Positions 2,980 to 14,644 are shown, numbered from the stretch's first letter. The stretch: 40,456 bases of DNA from an uncultured Caryophanales bacterium (GCA_948442255.1 CAOJRT010000013.1:1-40456); one strand, 5' to 3'. Numbers and translations are program-made. The notes: a model not told the origin generated them from the sequence alone.

Positions 2980-5900
2980 TTAAGAAGCTATAGGTATTTC
3001 TTTTTTTGGTTTTTCAAAACGAATTTCACTTATAATAATAACAAGAATAATTAAGATAAGTACAAGGATAATTTTCCATGTATTACTACTCTTTTTAGCT
3101 GGTTTAACGTTTCTTGTTGAAGTTTCACTTTCTTTATTGTCAACTACTGGTGTATTTATTGTACCATTGTTGCCTGCATTGTTATCGCCAACATTATTAT
3201 TGGAACCATTTGAATTGTTATCACCAGTTGTATTGTTAGACGAATTATTATCACTTATGTTATTATTATTATTATTATTGTTATTGTTATTCCCATTATT
3301 TCCTGATGGATTGTATGTTCCTCCATTTGTATTAGATGAATTATTATTTCCATTGTTGTTTGAGGAATTATTTCCATTATTATTTGAATTATTACCTGAA
3401 TTATTGCCTGAATTATTATTGCTTCCGTTGTTATTGTTCGTATTATCAATTGTTTTATCAATCCAAGTAACTACCGCTTTAACAGACCCTGTATTGCCTG
3501 CTTTATCTCTAAATTCAAAAGTAAATTCACCATTTTCTGTAAAGACGTAGCTATTCTTACCTCCATTATTTGTAATGGTGATATCTTCACTATAATTTGT
3601 TAATGTAACAATGACATTTTCACTTGTTTTATCTTTTGTACTATACGCAATAGATGCTCTTGGTGCTTCTTTATCTATCCATGTTACTTTTGCAGTAGCG
3701 GAACCTGTATTTCCAGCTGCATCTTGGAAGTAGAAAGTATATTCACCATTATCATCAAATGTTACCATAAATGGGTCATTATTAGGTGCTTGATTTTCTT
3801 CTCCAGTTGCATTATTTTCTGTAATGATTGTAACTTCTTCACTAGGAATTAGTTTGGCGCTTACTTCATGGTTTGTAGGATTAGTTGTACTATACTCGAT
3901 TCTAGCTGAAGGAGCAGTTTTGTCAATCCAGTTTACTTTGGCTTTGGCAGAACCAGTTAATCCTGTGGCTTCATCTATAAATTCAAAAGTAAATTCTCCA
4001 TTTTTTGTAAAAGTATAAGTATCTTTTCCATCATTATTTGTTATTTTTATTGTTGTACTAGGGTTTACTAATCTTGCTACAACATCTTTATTTGTTTTTT
4101 CTGTTGTACTATATCCTATTCCAGCTGTAGGATGAGGATTTTTTGTTATATCTTGATAGAAATTGAATGCTTTGGCAGCAATAAAACTTAAAGAACTGGC
4201 ACTAGATGTATTTAAACCAACGATTTTAATATACTCTAGCTCTACTGGTGTTTCAAAGTCAATTGTTTTTATCTCATCATTATTTGCCCAATCTACTTGC
4301 GTTATTTCTGTAAAGTTTTCACCATCAGCACTACCTAGTATTTGCGCTTTTAAAATTTTACCATTTCCTCCACCTGCTGGAACATAATCCATTGCGGATA
4401 AAACGATTCTCCTATCAAATTTAATTATAATAAACTTGTCTCTATCTGTACCATTCCACGCAGAATGCCATCTCGTATTATAGTTTCCATCAATTGCGTA
4501 AGCTGCACTACCTTGATTGCTTGTTGCTTGTGATGAAACTCCAGTCATTGTTAAATGCGAAACTGGAATGTATTTTCTTGTATCTGGTTGATTATCTTGT
4601 GTAAACGTATATGTGGCAAATGGGCTTGGTAATTTTGTACCTGTTGCTCCCACTCTCACTTGGACAGTTTTATTCCCTGTTAAATCGGGAGAAGATGTAG
4701 CGTATGAAGTCCATGGGTCGGATTCAGTCATTCTCCATTCCATTGTTAAATCCACACCTACTACACGGTTTTCTAAATCATTACCAAATAAGTAGTCTCC
4801 TCCATTGTGCTGAGGAAGAGTTCCCTCTGTAATATCTATTTTGTATAGATTTTCTTCATTATAATTTACTCCAACAATATGAACATAAATGTCATTTTCT
4901 GCGGTTATACTAGCAATTTGTTCTTTGGTTAATTGAAGTTGGTGAGGTTCATCGCCTGTAAAGCTAACTTCATTCCAAGTATTTTTACCATCTAAGCTGT
5001 AATCCCAACGTATACCATTTCCGTCAAATCGACTAGATAATACAATCTTTTCAGCGTTTTCACCATCAAAAGAGAATGTTGCTATAGATTTATCAATTTT
5101 TCCTAATAGGAAGTTAGCTTCTGTTCTTGTAAGAGATGGTTGTACAACTGTAGTGTCACTATTTTGTACTTGACTTGATTCTGTTAAAGCTCTTGTTTGT
5201 AAAAGTGTAAACCTATAAACATATTCTATACTAGTTAATTTTGGTTTAATTAAATTTTGTAAATGATACATAGGAAGAGGGAAGTATTTCATATTTGTAG
5301 CAACTTCTTCAGCTAATTTATAGTAATCCTCTTCTGATTTTGTTGTACTTCTATTATATAAATCAATTAAACCAAGCCATGCATCAAAATTTATACTTTG
5401 TACGCTTAAAGCTTTTCTATAAATTTCTTCTTGTTTAGTCGAATCATTACTGTATACATCTGCCAATTTAACAAGTTCTTCTGCTTTTACTAAATTGTCA
5501 TAGTCATTAATAGCCTCTTGTCCTAATTGCATGTAGACAACTTGGTAAGATCCTTTCGCATAGCTTCCATTACCCCAACCAAGTAATAATCTTTCTCCTT
5601 TTTCAGATAAAGTCCATCCACTAACGTCATTATCAATTCCCCAAGCGGCTTTACCTGCTTCATTCTTACTATAATAAAGAAGTGCTGCATGTCCAGGTTG
5701 CCCAATAACAGTTGCTGGCATACCATGTGTTGTACGGATATTAGAACCAGTTTTGGATATACCTCCACAAACTGCTCCTGTTCCAAATTTGTTCCTTAAA
5801 TTCATCCATACTTTATATAATTTGTAATCCACTGTACCTCTTGTTATCTTTATAGTATATTCAGGATTTTCTTTTCCTCCTGGAATTGTGTAACTTAAAT

Positions 5901-7371
5901 CAAACATTCCTATTTTGTTATCTTTATTATTTTTATCTGGTACTGCAAATAGCTCATTGAAGTAGTCTCTATTTTCTTCGCTATAGTATAAATCTTGGCT
6001 ATAGTTTGGCCAAACATAAGCCATGTAAGGATGTGGTGTTAAATAACTCCAAACTCTACCTGGTTCTGCGTCTATTTTTGATTGAACATAGTCATTTAAC
6101 CATAAGATTTCTTCGTCATCTATACTATTATTCATAATATAACGCATTTCTTCAACTTGTAAAGCTTCAAAAATTGGCGTCATATTCACATTATCAGTGG
6201 CTTTTAATTTTCCATTTTTATGTAAATATTTAAATATTGCATAACGCCTTACTGCGTCTGATTGATTTTCTTTTGCACTAGACTGCATCCATAAACCTAC
6301 TAACTGTCCGTGAGTCAAGGATAAAGTAATTGCCATTTTTTTATATAAATCTCCATAAGTCATATTAGGATACCATTTGTTATTTAAAAGTGTAGTATTA
6401 TTAAAATCTTCTTTATAGTTATAATAAAGTCTAGATAGTTGAGTTAATGAATTATAGTATCCTCCGTCTGGAGCACCTCCAAGCATATATAGCTTTAACA
6501 CATCTTGATTATTCATTAACCAATCAATAGCTTCTTTATTTTCATTACTAGCGTTATAAATAGAATTAAGTGTATATTGACCAACACTTTTTACAAGTTC
6601 TCTTTTTAATAACGTGTATTCAAATTCACCAGTTATATCTGTTTGATTAGCGAATTTTGTCTTAATTATATTGTCATATTCTTCTACAGAAGCAAAAGAG
6701 GAAGATTCATCAATTTCATTTACTAGTTTAGCATCAGCATAAACAGAGTGATCATTTGCATTAGATCCATTATCATTTGCATATAGTCTTAAATATTTTG
6801 CGTCACTAATATCTACTTTAACAAAGGTAGCATTTTCTCTTGGCTTTTTTAATAAGTCTTGTACTTGTGGAACCCAAGTTGAACCATCCTTTGATGTAGA
6901 TATTGTAAATTTAACACCATTTCCTTTTGAAGTAGTCAAATTCATTCCGACAAAAGCGGTAAAATATTTATAATCATAAGCACTTAAATCATAGGTGATT
7001 TGTGATGTTGCATGTGCCCAAATTCCTTTTTCGAAAGAAAAGGAGTTATTTTCGATTTTAACAGTGATTTTTCCTCCACCATTTACTTCATCGTAACGTA
7101 TTTGATCCCAACTGGTTGCTGTTTGATTTTTAATATATTCAATATTAGATAGATAAACACAATCTTCTGTTTTGGCTCTGTTATAAGCAAGTAATGTGTC
7201 ACTACTTTCCACTACTTCTAATCCAGAATTAGTAGCATTCGTATCATCTGCTTTTGATACGTTATTAGTCGTAACTATTAATACTCCTAATAGTAAAATA
7301 AAGCACATAACATAAGCAAGTAAAAAATTTTTTCTCTTTGTGTCTTTTCTCATATTTATTCTTTTTTTCAT
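2980..7371 (-). CDS. Giant membrane-anchored surface protein: NPCBM, transglutaminase-like, F5/8C and Ig-like domains
   Basis: This 1463-residue protein is probably displayed on the cell surface. From the N-terminus: a signal peptide or signal anchor (about residues 15-37); an NPCBM-type carbohydrate-binding domain (about 55-220, with the SWDQIRYDEVNGGG and FEKGIWAHA signatures); a helical region; then a candidate catalytic core with GAVCGG (Cys about 535), QPGHAALLYY (His about 561) and WGIDND (Asp about 580), the order of a transglutaminase Cys-His-Asp triad. Next come a beta region with GNKTVQVRVGATGT, an F5/8 type C (discoidin) domain (about 935-1072, DGNYNTRWHSAW), three Ig-like repeats each ending near WIDK (about 1085-1306), an Asn-rich stalk, and one C-terminal membrane helix (about 1434-1453) with a short charged tail. 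There is no LPXTG, so anchoring is by the helix. I chose the ATG at 7371, 11 bases after AGAAGG; a GTG lies 12 bases upstream. Glycan binding, such as mucin, is inference from the domains. Confidence 0.85.
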   Translation of the reverse strand: MKKRINMRKDTKRKNFLLAYVMCFILLLGVLIVTTNNVSKADDTNATNSGLEVVESSDTLLAYNRAKTEDCVYLSNIEYIKNQTATSWDQIRYDEVNGGGKITVKIENNSFSFEKGIWAHATSQITYDLSAYDYKYFTAFVGMNLTTSKGNGVKFTISTSKDGSTWVPQVQDLLKKPRENATFVKVDISDAKYLRLYANDNGSNANDHSVYADAKLVNEIDESSSFASVEEYDNIIKTKFANQTDITGEFEYTLLKRELVKSVGQYTLNSIYNASNENKEAIDWLMNNQDVLKLYMLGGAPDGGYYNSLTQLSRLYYNYKEDFNNTTLLNNKWYPNMTYGDLYKKMAITLSLTHGQLVGLWMQSSAKENQSDAVRRYAIFKYLHKNGKLKATDNVNMTPIFEALQVEEMRYIMNNSIDDEEILWLNDYVQSKIDAEPGRVWSYLTPHPYMAYVWPNYSQDLYYSEENRDYFNELFAVPDKNNKDNKIGMFDLSYTIPGGKENPEYTIKITRGTVDYKLYKVWMNLRNKFGTGAVCGGISKTGSNIRTTHGMPATVIGQPGHAALLYYSKNEAGKAAWGIDNDVSGWTLSEKGERLLLGWGNGSYAKGSYQVVYMQLGQEAINDYDNLVKAEELVKLADVYSNDSTKQEEIYRKALSVQSINFDAWLGLIDLYNRSTTKSEEDYYKLAEEVATNMKYFPLPMYHLQNLIKPKLTSIEYVYRFTLLQTRALTESSQVQNSDTTVVQPSLTRTEANFLLGKIDKSIATFSFDGENAEKIVLSSRFDGNGIRWDYSLDGKNTWNEVSFTGDEPHQLQLTKEQIASITAENDIYVHIVGVNYNEENLYKIDITEGTLPQHNGGDYLFGNDLENRVVGVDLTMEWRMTESDPWTSYATSSPDLTGNKTVQVRVGATGTKLPSPFATYTFTQDNQPDTRKYIPVSHLTMTGVSSQATSNQGSAAYAIDGNYNTRWHSAWNGTDRDKFIIIKFDRRIVLSAMDYVPAGGGNGKILKAQILGSADGENFTEITQVDWANNDEIKTIDFETPVELEYIKIVGLNTSSASSLSFIAAKAFNFYQDITKNPHPTAGIGYSTTEKTNKDVVARLVNPSTTIKITNNDGKDTYTFTKNGEFTFEFIDEATGLTGSAKAKVNWIDKTAPSARIEYSTTNPTNHEVSAKLIPSEEVTIITENNATGEENQAPNNDPFMVTFDDNGEYTFYFQDAAGNTGSATAKVTWIDKEAPRASIAYSTKDKTSENVIVTLTNYSEDITITNNGGKNSYVFTENGEFTFEFRDKAGNTGSVKAVVTWIDKTIDNTNNNNGSNNNSGNNSGNNSNNNGNNSSNNNGNNNSSNTNGGTYNPSGNNGNNNNNNNNNNNISDNNSSNNTTGDNNSNGSNNNVGDNNAGNNGTINTPVVDNKESETSTRNVKPAKKSSNTWKIILVLILIILVIIISEIRFEKPKKEIPIAS
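3260..3292. repeat. ATT/GTT trinucleotide tract in the Asn-rich stalk
   Basis: About seven consecutive TAT/ATT triplets followed by GTT/ATT triplets encode a run of asparagines (AAT/AAC on the minus strand). More interrupted copies continue to about 3440. Slippage would change stalk length in whole codons without breaking the frame. Confidence 0.85.
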
Positions 7372-7470
7372 ACTCCTACACACCCTTCTTGTGATTGTAT
7401 TATAGCAAATTCTGTATCCTTTTCAAGTTTTCCTCCCTTTTTGTCGATTTTACTTTACATTTTTTTGCAC

Positions 7471-9177: not shown

Positions 9178-9855
9178 TTATTTTTCAACATAGGGATAAC
9201 GAATCGTATTTTTTATCACATCATACTTCTTGTTTACTGCATTATTCGTGTCTTCTTTTGATGGAACCCTTTCACAAAATAGAGTAAATTTTTTTTCATA
9301 ATTATCTTCTTCGCCAAGTAAAAGAATTCTTATTAAAGGGACTATTCTTTGACTGGATGATATTTTATTCCAAACGGATATAATATCTGCACATGTACAA
9401 CAATTTAATTCAATTCTTTCTAGCAGACAGGAATCTATGTCTTTGAAAAAAGAATCGTATTCTTCAAGAGAAAATCTTTTTTTATCAAATTCATAGAAGA
9501 AATACAAACTCCCTTTTTGCATTTTTTTTAAAATGATATCTCTTAAAGCAATTGTTTTTTCTTTATATTTTATTGTTTGAAACAATGCTCTCATCTCATG
9601 ATTTTCATCTACAACATAAATTCCTCTTAAATTTATATCTGTAGGTGGAAAGCCCGTTTCATCTTCATATTCTTTTTTTATATTTTTTCTTATTCTTTCT
9701 TTCTTTTTTGAGAAGAAATCTTCTTCTGAGCTATAGGAAAGGGTATATTTGTCAATAATTGTTAAAAAAGATTGCATTGAGTAGTCCATTTCTTTTGCTC
9801 CACCCAATCCTTCAACTTCTACCTTAACCACTAATTTATAACAACTTTTTTCCAT
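9178..9855 (-). CDS. Hypothetical protein next to ychF
   Basis: I do not recognise this 225-residue protein. It has no signal peptide or membrane helix. It is rich in Lys and Glu, with a basic stretch FFSKKKERIRKNIKKEYEDE (about residues 48-67) and a Cys cluster LNCCTCADI (about 150-158) that could hold metal. The start codon is 7 bases after the ychF stop with no clear ribosome binding site, so translation is probably coupled to ychF. The gene faces no terminator, so it belongs to the same transcript. Base composition matches its neighbours. Confidence 0.7.
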   Translation of the reverse strand: MEKSCYKLVVKVEVEGLGGAKEMDYSMQSFLTIIDKYTLSYSSEEDFFSKKKERIRKNIKKEYEDETGFPPTDINLRGIYVVDENHEMRALFQTIKYKEKTIALRDIILKKMQKGSLYFFYEFDKKRFSLEEYDSFFKDIDSCLLERIELNCCTCADIISVWNKISSSQRIVPLIRILLLGEEDNYEKKFTLFCERVPSKEDTNNAVNKKYDVIKNTIRYPYVEK

Positions 9856-11011: not shown

Positions 11012-14000
11012 TTACTTTTCAATTGGTTTCCCACTTAAAGATAGACTTTTTTGTTCTTCTTTTTCTTTCCTATCCATTTTGTCCAATATTTTATACACCG
11101 TTAATAATTCTTGCCCACTTAATAATTCTCGATAACTAATATGATAATATGACATAATCGTCTTTTTAACGGTTGGTACTAATTGTTTTTTATATCGCCC
11201 TAGCAGTTCTATCGCTGCTTCTCTTTTTAATGCGAAGATATCTGTTCCACCATCATATTTGGCTCTAATTAAATCATATAGAATCTCAATGGGTATATTT
11301 GCTACTTTTCTATTTTTACATCTTAATGTTGCTTTTATATGGCATTCATATATTTTTTTCTTATATTCGGCCATATGCTGTTTTTCACTATTATAGTAAT
11401 TTACTATTTCATCTAGTGTGAAAGTTTTTTCTTTGTATATTTTATCTTGATGTTTCTTGGAAGCGAGCATAAACCTACCAATCATATCACAAACTCTACT
11501 AGGAGTCTTATCTAACTTTAGTTTACTAATAATCGCAGGAAGAGCTAGATTTTCAATACCACTATTTCCGAAATATAGATCAAATATTTCTTTTGCTAAA
11601 ACTTTATTTCCATCAAATGGGAAATCTGTATCTTGCCAGTGCGTTTCTAAATAGTCAAAATCAAATAATTTAGTATCTCTTTTTTCGATAATTTCAAATA
11701 ATTTAATATTTATTTTATTTATTCTATTTTTGACATAATTATACCCTTGTTTGTATTTCTCTGCTATTTCCTCTAATGTTAACTGATGATGATAATAAGC
11801 ATCAATAAGTATTCTATCATTTTGAGGAAAGTATCTTATGTTTGGTAATATATCATATTCATAGTTAATGGTACCAGGTATTTCCCTGTTTTTATATTTT
11901 AAAATTGCGAGAATAGTTCTTAAATATCTATTATAGATACTTTGTTCACACTCATTATATAGGATTGCTATTTCTCCCATAGATTTATAAGGATAACTAT
12001 TTAGTTCAAATAAATAACAAATAATTTCTCTTTCTTTTCTGCTAATTGGCAAGTGCACATCTTTTAAATATTCTTCTAAGTCTATTCTTTTTATATAACA
12101 AATCGTATCAGTATAAGTTCCTATTTTATTATGTTTTAGTTTTTTCTCAATAGAAGTTTTCATATTTCCATAAGAATGCGAAGAAGGAAGATTTAATCTC
12201 TGTGTTATTTCTTTTTTATTTAATTTTACTCCTTCCTGGTTATACTGATTTTTTATTCCATAGAAATAAGATACAAATCGCTTTTCTACTTCTGTTAATA
12301 TACTTTCTGAGGGATGTTTGGATAGTTCTTTTTCTATATCATTTCTTTCTAAAACAACATCTTTTATTAAATATTTTCTATAAATTTTATTAAATCTACA
12401 GATTATCTTAGCAACTTCTTCTTTCGAAACACCATTTTGTTCTGCTATTTTATCAATCGTAAAATAATCAATATATTTTTCTTCTATTATCTTCTTTTCA
12501 AATGCAGAAAACAAAGATGGTTTCTTTATTATTTCTTCTAACAAATCACTTTCGGGAGAAAAAGGAGTTGTGATATGATAACGTATAAAGTCGATTCTAC
12601 GGATAGCTGTGGTTATTTTATTAGAAATATCATAGGGTGGAAGTCCCGTTATTTTTTCAATTTCTTCATAAGTTTGGTCTTTTAAGAAAAATAAGATAAG
12701 AATTTCTTTTATATTTTCGGCAAATTGCATTTTAGGATCCGTAATATAAGGAAGATAAATTTTTTTGTTAATATTTAATGAACAACTTTTATTAGCATAT
12801 AAATTAATTATACTCTTATAAGCACTGCTAATTTTATTAGCTATATATGGATAAGGGATATGTAGACGTTCACCAATCTCTTCAATTGAATATCTTTCTC
12901 CTTTTACACCAAAATATAAATCTAATAGTTCCTCTTTTTCTCCCACAACTTTGTCTGGGTATTTTCTCTTTATTTCTAAGTACTTTTCTTTATCAAAACT
13001 ATTATTCATATAATGGTCAATATGATAATACATTTTTTCTAAGCGAAATATGATACAAGAAATATCTTCTGCGTCGATGTTAGTTCCATACAAACGATTA
13101 AATTCTTTTCTTGACATGTTCCCTAAAATTATATTTTCAATAATAAGTTGGTGGTCTTTACAAAATTCATTTTTCTTTTTTAAATAAGCTTCTTTTAACT
13201 TAGAAAATGGTAACCGGGTATCTCTTTTTCGATATCCGTATAATAAAACATTTAAAAATCTATTTGTATACATCTTTTGTATTGCTTCCTTAGGAGTGCC
13301 TTCAAAATATTTTTCTAATAAGAATTGTTCTTTTGTTGAAAGCTCTTCCCATTCGCCATGATATAAAGAAAGAAAATCCTTTAAAGTGTAATTATATTTT
13401 TTCTTTAAGTAAGTATATGCTACGACTTTTTTCCCGTGTTCATTTGCAAATGTATAGATAGAAGACTTATACAATTTTGTTAAATCTTTATGATAAGTTT
13501 CATAGTCCTCTCTGTCTATGTTTTCAATTGCTCCCTTAATGTTCACTAAATATTTTTGCATTTCTTCATAAGTTATTCCTAATTTATATGAAGTATCTTG
13601 TATACAAAAAGTTTCTTTCTTTATATATAAATCATAATAAATGGCATATTCTATATTACTTAGTATAGGTCTTAAATATAAATATCTCGTAATATCCCTA
13701 GGTGTAAGAGGAGCTGTCTTTATTTTTTCTAGTTTTAATACACCAATGCTTTTTAACATATTTATATACTCTTTTTGATTATCTTTAAAATAGTATTTTA
13801 ACTTTCTTTTTAAGCGCTCTTCTTTTTGGCGAATTCCTTCTCTCATTATTCCTAACTCGTTAGCGATTTTCTCTTGCGTAATAGGTTCTGGTATTAAGAT
13901 TCTATAATAAAGAATAAAATATTCATATGGAGAAAGTGTATAACGAAAAAAAGATAATAAACGTTGATCCGTTTCTTGGTTGATGACTTTTTCATAAGAA

Positions 14001-14614
14001 TCTAGGGTACTCTCATCGGCAATAATATCTTCTAATGTGGCACCATTTTCTTCATCATTTATTTTTTTATTTATACTTACTATTCTGTTTTGAGATTTCT
14101 GTTTTAAGTGCTCTAATGTTTTGGGACTTATTTGTAATTTTTCACAGATTTCATTATCTGTTAAGTCTTCTTCTCTTATTAAACTTATTAATTTTTTACC
14201 CTCTCTTATTTTATTACTTGGGTAACAAAGTGTTTCTTCTTCTTTTTCTATCGCTCTATCTATTTGGCGGACAATCAAAGTCGTTGCATATGTCGAAAAG
14301 GCTGATTTCTCTGGATTATAAGTTTCTATAGAACGCCAAAGCCCTAACATCCCTTCTTGTATTATATCTATAAACTGCATGTGCATAACTCTGGAGACAT
14401 AGTTTTTACCAATGGAGAAGACTAAACGCATATTACTTTTAAATACCTCTTCTTTAGCAGCCATATTCCCATTATGGTACTCTTTTATTAATGTTGTAAT
14501 TTCTTCCTGTGATTTGGGAGGAAAATGTTCTAATTTTTTTAAAAATTCTTGTTCTACTGTACCAAGTACCTCTTTTTCGGTTTTTCCCTTGCAAAAAGTA
14601 ACTTTTTCCCCCAT
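11012..14614 (-). CDS. Giant sigma-70-like protein with about ten extra region-4-like HTH units
   Basis: The 1200-residue protein starts like a sigma-70 factor. Residues 62-125 match sigma region 2: NMRLVFSIGKNY (2.1), FIDIIQEGMLGLWRSIETYNP (2.2) and SAFSTYATTLIVRQIDRAIE (2.3-2.4). Residues 135-185 resemble region 3 and 225-277 region 4 (SPYEYF ... ITQEKIANELGI). Ordinary factors end there. Here about 900 more residues hold roughly ten units of 60-90 residues, each a 'no-gap growth helix' (for example LLDLYFG, FEKKIIEEKYI, EREIICYLFEL, DRILIDAYY) then a helix-turn-helix such as YSIEEIGERLHIP, TIDKIAEQNGVSKEEV or LTLEEIAEKYKQGYNYV. Unit centres are near 340, 445, 510, 585, 655, 725, 800, 880, 955 and 1030. 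The ATG at 14614 has AAGGAG 8 bases upstream. It lies between abgT and ychF in a conserved cluster. Promoter recognition is inferred from regions 2-4; the role of the array is unknown. Confidence 0.85.
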   Translation of the reverse strand: MGEKVTFCKGKTEKEVLGTVEQEFLKKLEHFPPKSQEEITTLIKEYHNGNMAAKEEVFKSNMRLVFSIGKNYVSRVMHMQFIDIIQEGMLGLWRSIETYNPEKSAFSTYATTLIVRQIDRAIEKEEETLCYPSNKIREGKKLISLIREEDLTDNEICEKLQISPKTLEHLKQKSQNRIVSINKKINDEENGATLEDIIADESTLDSYEKVINQETDQRLLSFFRYTLSPYEYFILYYRILIPEPITQEKIANELGIMREGIRQKEERLKRKLKYYFKDNQKEYINMLKSIGVLKLEKIKTAPLTPRDITRYLYLRPILSNIEYAIYYDLYIKKETFCIQDTSYKLGITYEEMQKYLVNIKGAIENIDREDYETYHKDLTKLYKSSIYTFANEHGKKVVAYTYLKKKYNYTLKDFLSLYHGEWEELSTKEQFLLEKYFEGTPKEAIQKMYTNRFLNVLLYGYRKRDTRLPFSKLKEAYLKKKNEFCKDHQLIIENIILGNMSRKEFNRLYGTNIDAEDISCIIFRLEKMYYHIDHYMNNSFDKEKYLEIKRKYPDKVVGEKEELLDLYFGVKGERYSIEEIGERLHIPYPYIANKISSAYKSIINLYANKSCSLNINKKIYLPYITDPKMQFAENIKEILILFFLKDQTYEEIEKITGLPPYDISNKITTAIRRIDFIRYHITTPFSPESDLLEEIIKKPSLFSAFEKKIIEEKYIDYFTIDKIAEQNGVSKEEVAKIICRFNKIYRKYLIKDVVLERNDIEKELSKHPSESILTEVEKRFVSYFYGIKNQYNQEGVKLNKKEITQRLNLPSSHSYGNMKTSIEKKLKHNKIGTYTDTICYIKRIDLEEYLKDVHLPISRKEREIICYLFELNSYPYKSMGEIAILYNECEQSIYNRYLRTILAILKYKNREIPGTINYEYDILPNIRYFPQNDRILIDAYYHHQLTLEEIAEKYKQGYNYVKNRINKINIKLFEIIEKRDTKLFDFDYLETHWQDTDFPFDGNKVLAKEIFDLYFGNSGIENLALPAIISKLKLDKTPSRVCDMIGRFMLASKKHQDKIYKEKTFTLDEIVNYYNSEKQHMAEYKKKIYECHIKATLRCKNRKVANIPIEILYDLIRAKYDGGTDIFALKREAAIELLGRYKKQLVPTVKKTIMSYYHISYRELLSGQELLTVYKILDKMDRKEKEEQKSLSLSGKPIEK

Positions 14615-14644
14615 AAAAATCACTCCTTGCGAGCTATCTTAACA

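Follow-up and report, generated by a model that had tools for sequence, protein, structure and literature searches.

Textbook sigma factors have a single domain that reads the −35 element. A gene for a 1200-residue sigma-like protein, in a 40,456-nucleotide stretch of DNA (the window) from a 1.64 Mb MAG of the class Bacilli, raises the question of whether that domain has been multiplied within one sigma subunit, and of what such a protein would do.

The mechanical open reading frame runs from a GTG at 14623 to 11012 on the minus strand. This GTG overlaps the ribosome-binding region, and translation probably begins at the ATG at 14614, which follows AAGGAG after 8 nt; the resulting gene of 1200 residues agrees with the extent proposed in an earlier sequence-only reading of this DNA. 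Residue numbers refer to protein P0001, in which the GTG is residue 1 and the ATG residue 4. The gene probably has its own promoter, read by eye as TTGGTA-17-TAAGAT, and directly before this putative promoter lies a terminator-like inverted repeat of abgT (AAAACACATT...AATGTGTTTTTTT). The ychF gene begins about 35 nt past the stop codon, and the order along the minus strand is prfB-tilS-ftsH-parA-parB-mscS-abgT-giant gene-ychF-225 aa-ssb, in keeping with the chromosomal setting claimed before. The 225-aa open reading frame downstream of ychF (9178–9855) has no significant match in Pfam or NCBIfam. Elsewhere in the window (2980–7383), a 1467-aa protein carries NPCBM and F5/8 type C domains and is perhaps surface-bound or glycan-binding. 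The features of the giant gene are as follows (AF2, AlphaFold2 model; E-values from hhalign unless stated otherwise).

11012..14614, minus strand, giant sigma-like gene, 1200 aa from the ATG (ORF call; AAGGAG 8 nt before the ATG)
14636..14641, minus strand, putative −10 element (TAAGAT), with TTGGTA 17 nt upstream (read by eye)
14240..14443, minus strand, sigma region 2, residues 61–128 (Pfam PF04542, 5e-14; alignment)
13979..14194, minus strand, sigma region 3/linker, residues ~144–215, weak (generic HTH models; alignment)
13787..13930, minus strand, sigma region 4 proper, residues 232–279, −35 helix MREGIRQ (Pfam PF04545; alignment; AF2)
13523..13657, minus strand, unit U1, residues 323–367 (E 3.5e-9 to region 4; AF2)
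13241..13384, minus strand, degenerate U2, residues ~414–461 (AF2; no sequence significance)
13025..13159, minus strand, unit U3, residues 489–533, trihelical in the model, weak in sequence (AF2; best non-overlapping E 2.6e-4)
12797..12940, minus strand, unit U4, residues 562–609, 'ELLDLYFG' repeat (E 7.7e-9 to U7, 8.9e-6 to SigA region 4)
12581..12718, minus strand, unit U5, residues 636–681 (E 3.2e-10 to U9, 1.2e-6 to region 4; Pfam Sigma70_r4_2)
12368..12505, minus strand, unit U6, residues 707–752, 'EKKIIEEKY' repeat (E 4.7e-10 to U9; AF2)
12122..12292, minus strand, unit U7, residues 778–834 (E 7.7e-9 to U4, 2.1e-6 to SigA region 4; AF2)
11891..12040, minus strand, unit U8, residues 862–911 (E 7.3e-7 to U7, 7.4e-6 to region 4)
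11684..11824, minus strand, unit U9, residues 934–980 (E 3.2e-10 to U5; AF2)
11447..11605, minus strand, unit U10, residues 1007–1059 (E 1.2e-8 to U4; AF2)
11036..11416, minus strand, helical tail, residues 1070–1196, with at most two degenerate units, U11 and U12 (AF2; no sequence significance)

The N-terminal module is that of a sigma-70 factor, as had been claimed. Pfam matched Sigma70_r2 at residues 61–128 (5e-14) and Sigma70_r4 over three stretches (1e-18, best at 237–276), as well as Sigma70_r4_2 at 639–666 within U5 (3e-9). Sigma regions were recognised by NCBIfam as well; the best profile models were RpoD_Cterm and Sig70-cyanoRpoD, of RpoD/RpoS types, and sigma chains bound to RNA polymerase ranked first in a Foldseek search with the full-length model (5ipl_F, E 4e-9). 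The region-3 HTH of the window copy was detected by generic HTH models only and has no match to Pfam region 3, which was found at 1e-10 in the relative L080 (on the same contig as L035). Region 4.2 has an RExxRQ −35 helix, MREGIRQ in the window copy and TRERIRQ(IE) in relatives.

Region 2 of the window copy is altered. The core-binding motif DIIQEG..GL of region 2.2 is kept, and TLIVRQIDR stands in 2.3/2.4 in place of WWIRQAITR, the WW being changed to TL. Equivalents of W433/W434, Q437 and T440 are missing, so the amino acids for reading and melting the −10 element are absent from this copy. In most relatives, regions 2.2–2.4 are canonical (for example, LDIIQEGNLGLMRAVEDYDP...AFSTYAVWWIKQAITR in L080), and DIIQEGNLGL, the W434-type tryptophan and TRERIRQIE are retained in the alignment. 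The copy in genome G001 has a region 2 more degraded than that of the window, and in G008 region 2 is missing altogether from several copies. The proposal of a working sigma factor is thus better supported for the relatives, and is doubtful for the window copy because its −10 residues are lost.

The array after region 4 comprises about 900 residues and is all helical. Unit profiles derived from the family alignment A2 (37 rows) were compared by hhalign, with 390 column-shuffled controls. U1 and U4–U10 are mutually similar, with a best E per unit between 7e-7 and 3e-10; the lowest E among the controls was 0.0036, which rules out chance or low-complexity repeats. Region 4 matches U1, U4, U5, U6, U7, U8 and U9 at E of 1.5e-4 or better, and U10 is linked to the array through U4 rather than directly through region 4. 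A SigA region-4 profile built from other genomes, and hence independent of the family, matches U4 (9e-6) and U7 (2e-6), with weaker matches to U5, U6 and U8 (3e-4 to 7e-4). Weak matches to several units also came from SigA region 3, itself the site of an HTH, and SigA region 2 matched none of the array units (E of 0.04 or higher).

The AlphaFold2 models have a mean pLDDT of 82.5 for the full length and 86.1 for the array alone. A helix order of [linker helix]-[~11]-[~8]-[16-20] recurs in region 4, U1 and U3–U10, which adds U3 as a ninth trihelical unit, together with three degenerate segments (U2, U11 and U12) that are helical and without significance by sequence. Successive units are spaced roughly 70–85 residues apart. 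The helix pattern, taken together with the sequence similarity, suggests a trihelical HTH fold for each unit. With eight extra units seen in the sequence, nine in the predicted secondary structure and at most 12 if the degenerate ones are counted, the earlier figure of about ten region-4-like HTH units is a fair one. The sequence-only reading had also raised the case of a C-terminal part formed by one unrelated fold, which is ruled out by the hhalign repeats and the helix pattern of the models. A Foldseek search of the array model alone gave no PDB match at E of 0.001 or better; sigma factors lead the list of weak matches (best 0.019), and the best viral match was at 1.1e-3. No solved protein appears to have this arrangement, a result that by itself is no proof of an HTH fold.

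Whether the units read DNA was assessed at positions equivalent to sigma-70 588/589 in 20 sequences, with U7 left out since its register is unclear. In region 4, R588 is kept in 17 of 20 and Q589 in 16 of 20 sequences. The reading helix of U5 is conserved (family consensus sKtRISNIITdgIRKID), with S in 18, N in 14 and T in 15 of the 20 at its contact positions. That of U8 is basic and conserved (SIrRRYQRAIVsIYK), with an R/R/Q pattern in which the contact positions hold R/K in 16/20 and R in 14/20. U10 is partly conserved (N 10, R/K 12 of 20). Contact positions are not conserved in U1, U3, U6 and U9; U4 has H/D there and is acidic, and the reading helices of U1 to U4 are neutral or acidic. The net charge of the array is +20. 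U8 is the most conserved array unit, and U8 and U10 are about equal in conservation to region 2, whose identity of 0.49 is the highest among all parts in the family alignment. Two non-HTH motifs, DKHLPIS and FDFDYY...LPFYG, are also conserved. Clear conservation of the contact positions is thus limited to U5, U8 and region 4, and some units of the array proposed earlier do not look like DNA readers. The conserved positions point to two or three extra DNA-reading units, with spacer-like or lineage-specific units between them.

Homologues with the same architecture, whose existence had been put forward as a check, were found. About 20 full-length homologues (1174–1228 aa) align end to end with a constant order of units, most at 25–36% identity to the window protein, and come from a single family of RF39-type gut Bacilli, in which they cover about 10 genera. 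A search of genome contigs with one sequence found nothing, and with the family alignment it found relatives. The array is present in 13 of the 288 genomes of the order, from 10 genera. A class sample of 395 genomes gave only single-unit matches outside the family (E 4e-7 or weaker), and a phylum sample of 392 genomes, at a cut-off of 1e-7, had the array in no genome other than that of the window. The named relatives are uncultured gut Bacilli, including Candidatus Coprovivens excrementavium (L086); it and such relatives are placed in the order RF39 (PMC8035907).

The gene also occurs in split forms: short proteins of about 410 aa with the sigma module and U1 (L098–L101), and the array alone in L103 (764 aa) and L102 (apparently interrupted). 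The split point, near residues 400–425, coincides with a dip in model confidence, and U2 adjoins this module boundary. At L103:49-4871 (genome G089), the 764-aa HTH array without region 2 lies between three small sigma-like genes (249, 287 and 221 aa). Two or more copies occur in some genomes (L089; L082; G008), and the L082 copies flank a 633-aa transposase-like gene, named by eye. G008 (L040, L042, L091, L093) has the array gene in many tandem copies, the majority of which lack sigma region 2.

Two pairs have dN/dS values of 0.31 (L079/L088) and 0.34 (L080/L083), indicating that the array is under selection; in L079/L088, the later array segments are at 0.18–0.24 versus 0.47 for the sigma part. 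Divergence is nevertheless fast: L081 and L086 share 51% identity, while their ObgE proteins share 89% and their FAD oxidoreductases 94%. The flanking genes, mostly housekeeping ones, vary from one genus to another, and no conserved operon partner was found among the neighbourhoods compared. A parB-like gene lies near or adjoins the giant gene in the window, L107, L108 and L102, with three genera other than that of the window showing this arrangement; in several other members of the window genus the giant gene lies between obgE and the FAD oxidoreductase gene, and further ones are elsewhere. The proposed ychF/parA setting thus holds in part, for the three genera with a parB-like gene nearby, and fails for those near obgE or elsewhere. 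The gene was also placed earlier in a core cluster between abgT and ychF; its varying location shows that it is not a fixed member of such a cluster. Given these differing neighbours, and the L079 and L088 genes that share 92.6% of their bases and have no neighbours in common, the giant gene is a solitary chromosomal gene that now and then changes place, and the nearby parB-like genes are not taken as a sign of an origin-related function. The genus-level tree has many long branches and weak forks and does not separate vertical descent from transfer. A phage or mobile origin was rejected, with no match in 50,697 phage records by tblastn and the array gene not found in viral contigs. Read by eye, the upstream regions showed no long promoter motif in common, and many have a sigA-like TATAAT near the start codon. 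In one clade, a protein of about 287 aa is encoded between obgE and the giant gene (L080:4026-4889; orthologues in L081, L083, L086 and L089); it has no Pfam match and evolves fast, with 53–65% identity where ObgE has 89–92%.

Compared with group 1/2 sigma-70 factors (RpoD, RpoS, SigA), the family has regions 2 and 4 in common, and region 3 as recognised in relatives, whereas most of those are 250–400 aa with one region 4, and the window copy, unlike them, lacks the −10 readers. A single region 4 is usual for sigma-70 factors, not defining, and here eight to nine further units follow it. We place the giant protein with the sigma-70 factors, as a form with a multiplied region 4: its N-terminal module is unmistakably sigma-70, and the array units look like region-4 HTHs. 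As a functional sigma factor, the window copy falls short in one defining feature, the −10 residues. The extensions of ECF sigma factors have other folds and are regulatory, whereas here region 4 itself is repeated and region 3 is present in relatives. The combination of a sigma module with an extra C-terminal module is common to both, ECF41 being an example (see PMC3426412 and PMC8999054). RpoD/RpoS models score best for the window protein, which places it outside the ECF type. MzaA, from the candidate anti-phage system MZA, is also a long sigma-like protein, but its long part is N-terminal; the window protein matches only positions 422–660 of the 683-position profile and has no counterpart of the N-terminal module of about 420 aa. 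Among the neighbours listed by Pfam or by eye, no Mza partners were noted. In the split sigma factor SigO/RsoA of Bacillus subtilis, the sigma-2 and sigma-4 parts are on separate chains, as may hold in G089, but there is one sigma-4 part and no array. T5 D5-like regulators (phrog_323) and the phage sigma families phrog_351 and phrog_1740 gave weak HTH matches across several units (E 0.0002–0.002); for phrog_323, E was 0.0018 with the full length, 0.001 with the array and 0.0002 in L080. Unlike the giant protein, the D5-like profile covers about 320 aa without a sigma module, and the similarity may be generic HTH likeness. In contrast to a TALE-like programmable array, whose near-identical repeats differ at hypervariable reading residues, the units are highly diverged and each is fixed in its family position. 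Neither the family libraries searched nor PDB sequences yielded a repetition of region 4 at this scale, and the open-licence papers searched contain no description of multi-region-4 sigma factors.

The best reading of the family is a group-2-like (RpoD/RpoS-like) sigma-70 factor in which multiplication of region 4 has produced an arm of about nine further units in a constant order, and we give about an even chance to such a factor with an arm that reads upstream DNA. The architecture, the repeats, the predicted helix pattern, the family, the purifying selection and the conserved contact positions come from the analysis itself; what we infer is binding to RNA polymerase and to DNA, where the arm lies, and the regulon, as follows. 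Region 2 would dock on the beta-prime clamp and would also, in the majority of relatives, melt the −10 element; region 4 would bind the −35 element, and the arm would lie along the DNA upstream of it. U5 and U8, and perhaps U10, would make conserved base contacts, with the other units mainly setting the spacing or reading lineage-specific sequence. A promoter read at several sites, which is plausible, would give a very narrow regulon. Copies with an eroding or missing region 2, including that of the window, would bind DNA as arrays and initiate little or no transcription by themselves, and some copies turning into such stand-alone arrays is the best reading of these forms. A bolder version, which we rate as somewhat less likely than not, has the sigma factor carrying its own activator: the arm would read at least two extra elements far upstream of −35 in a multipartite promoter, and would be detachable in evolution. 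Counting against the upstream reading arm are the lost −10 readers of the window copy, the erosion or loss of region 2 in G001, G008 and G089, the unconserved contacts in U1, U3, U6 and U9 with an acidic U4, and the fast divergence, which seems unlike a factor with a stable regulon.

Contact conservation confined to region 4, U5, U8 and part of U10 favours the upstream reading arm over three rivals. The lost −10 readers of the window copy would also suit a sigma-derived DNA-binding array for which initiation is not the main job and region 2 is dispensable, coating or bridging sites as a repressor, a silencer or a decoy that holds RNA polymerase. Copies without region 2 do keep the array (G008; L091, L092, L093), a free array sits beside small sigma genes in L103, and U8 and U10 match region 2 in conservation; but most full-length members retain canonical 2.2–2.4 and 4.2, which would decay if unused, and region 2 has the highest identity of any part; for the family as a whole this reading is rather unlikely. 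For the copy in the window, which has lost its −10 readers, it is as likely as the sigma factor with an arm. The variable contact faces of U1, U3, U6 and U9, the neutral or acidic reading helices of U1 to U4 and the conserved non-HTH motifs would also suit a structural scaffold, in which the HTH units form a helical rod that binds proteins and region 4 alone touches DNA. The conserved S/N/T of U5 and R/R/Q of U8 at base-contact positions, and the charge of +20, count against such a rod, which is improbable. Least probable is a conflict or defence-related factor like MzaA, evolving fast under attack. The fast divergence, the patchy presence in the order, the tandem copies and the varied locations, with one locus close to type I restriction genes and two copies flanking the transposase-like gene, are compatible with it; the PADLOC match, however, is limited to the generic sigma part of MzaA, the surrounding genes are for the most part housekeeping ones and share no partner, and the gene was not found in the phages and viral contigs searched.

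If the upstream reading arm is correct, a fixed-order, roughly tenfold domain under purifying selection would show that promoter specificity can be built by domain repetition inside a sigma subunit. The family would also offer a natural basis from which to develop transcription factors for long promoters, and it bears on gene control in small-genome gut Bacilli of the order RF39. The existence of the architecture holds regardless of its eventual function.

A second kind of giant sigma factor, of 710–1196 aa, was observed in the same bacterial family (L044:4478-8014, L045:1714-8111, L046:6166-8298, L047:4635-7478, L110:5582-8353, L111:5572-8139 and L112:1899-4067). It has an N-terminal extension, regions 1.2–4 (in those scanned) and then a long C-terminus, which in L044 includes an HTH_17-like domain of about 80 aa that also occurs in other large proteins of about 25 genera.
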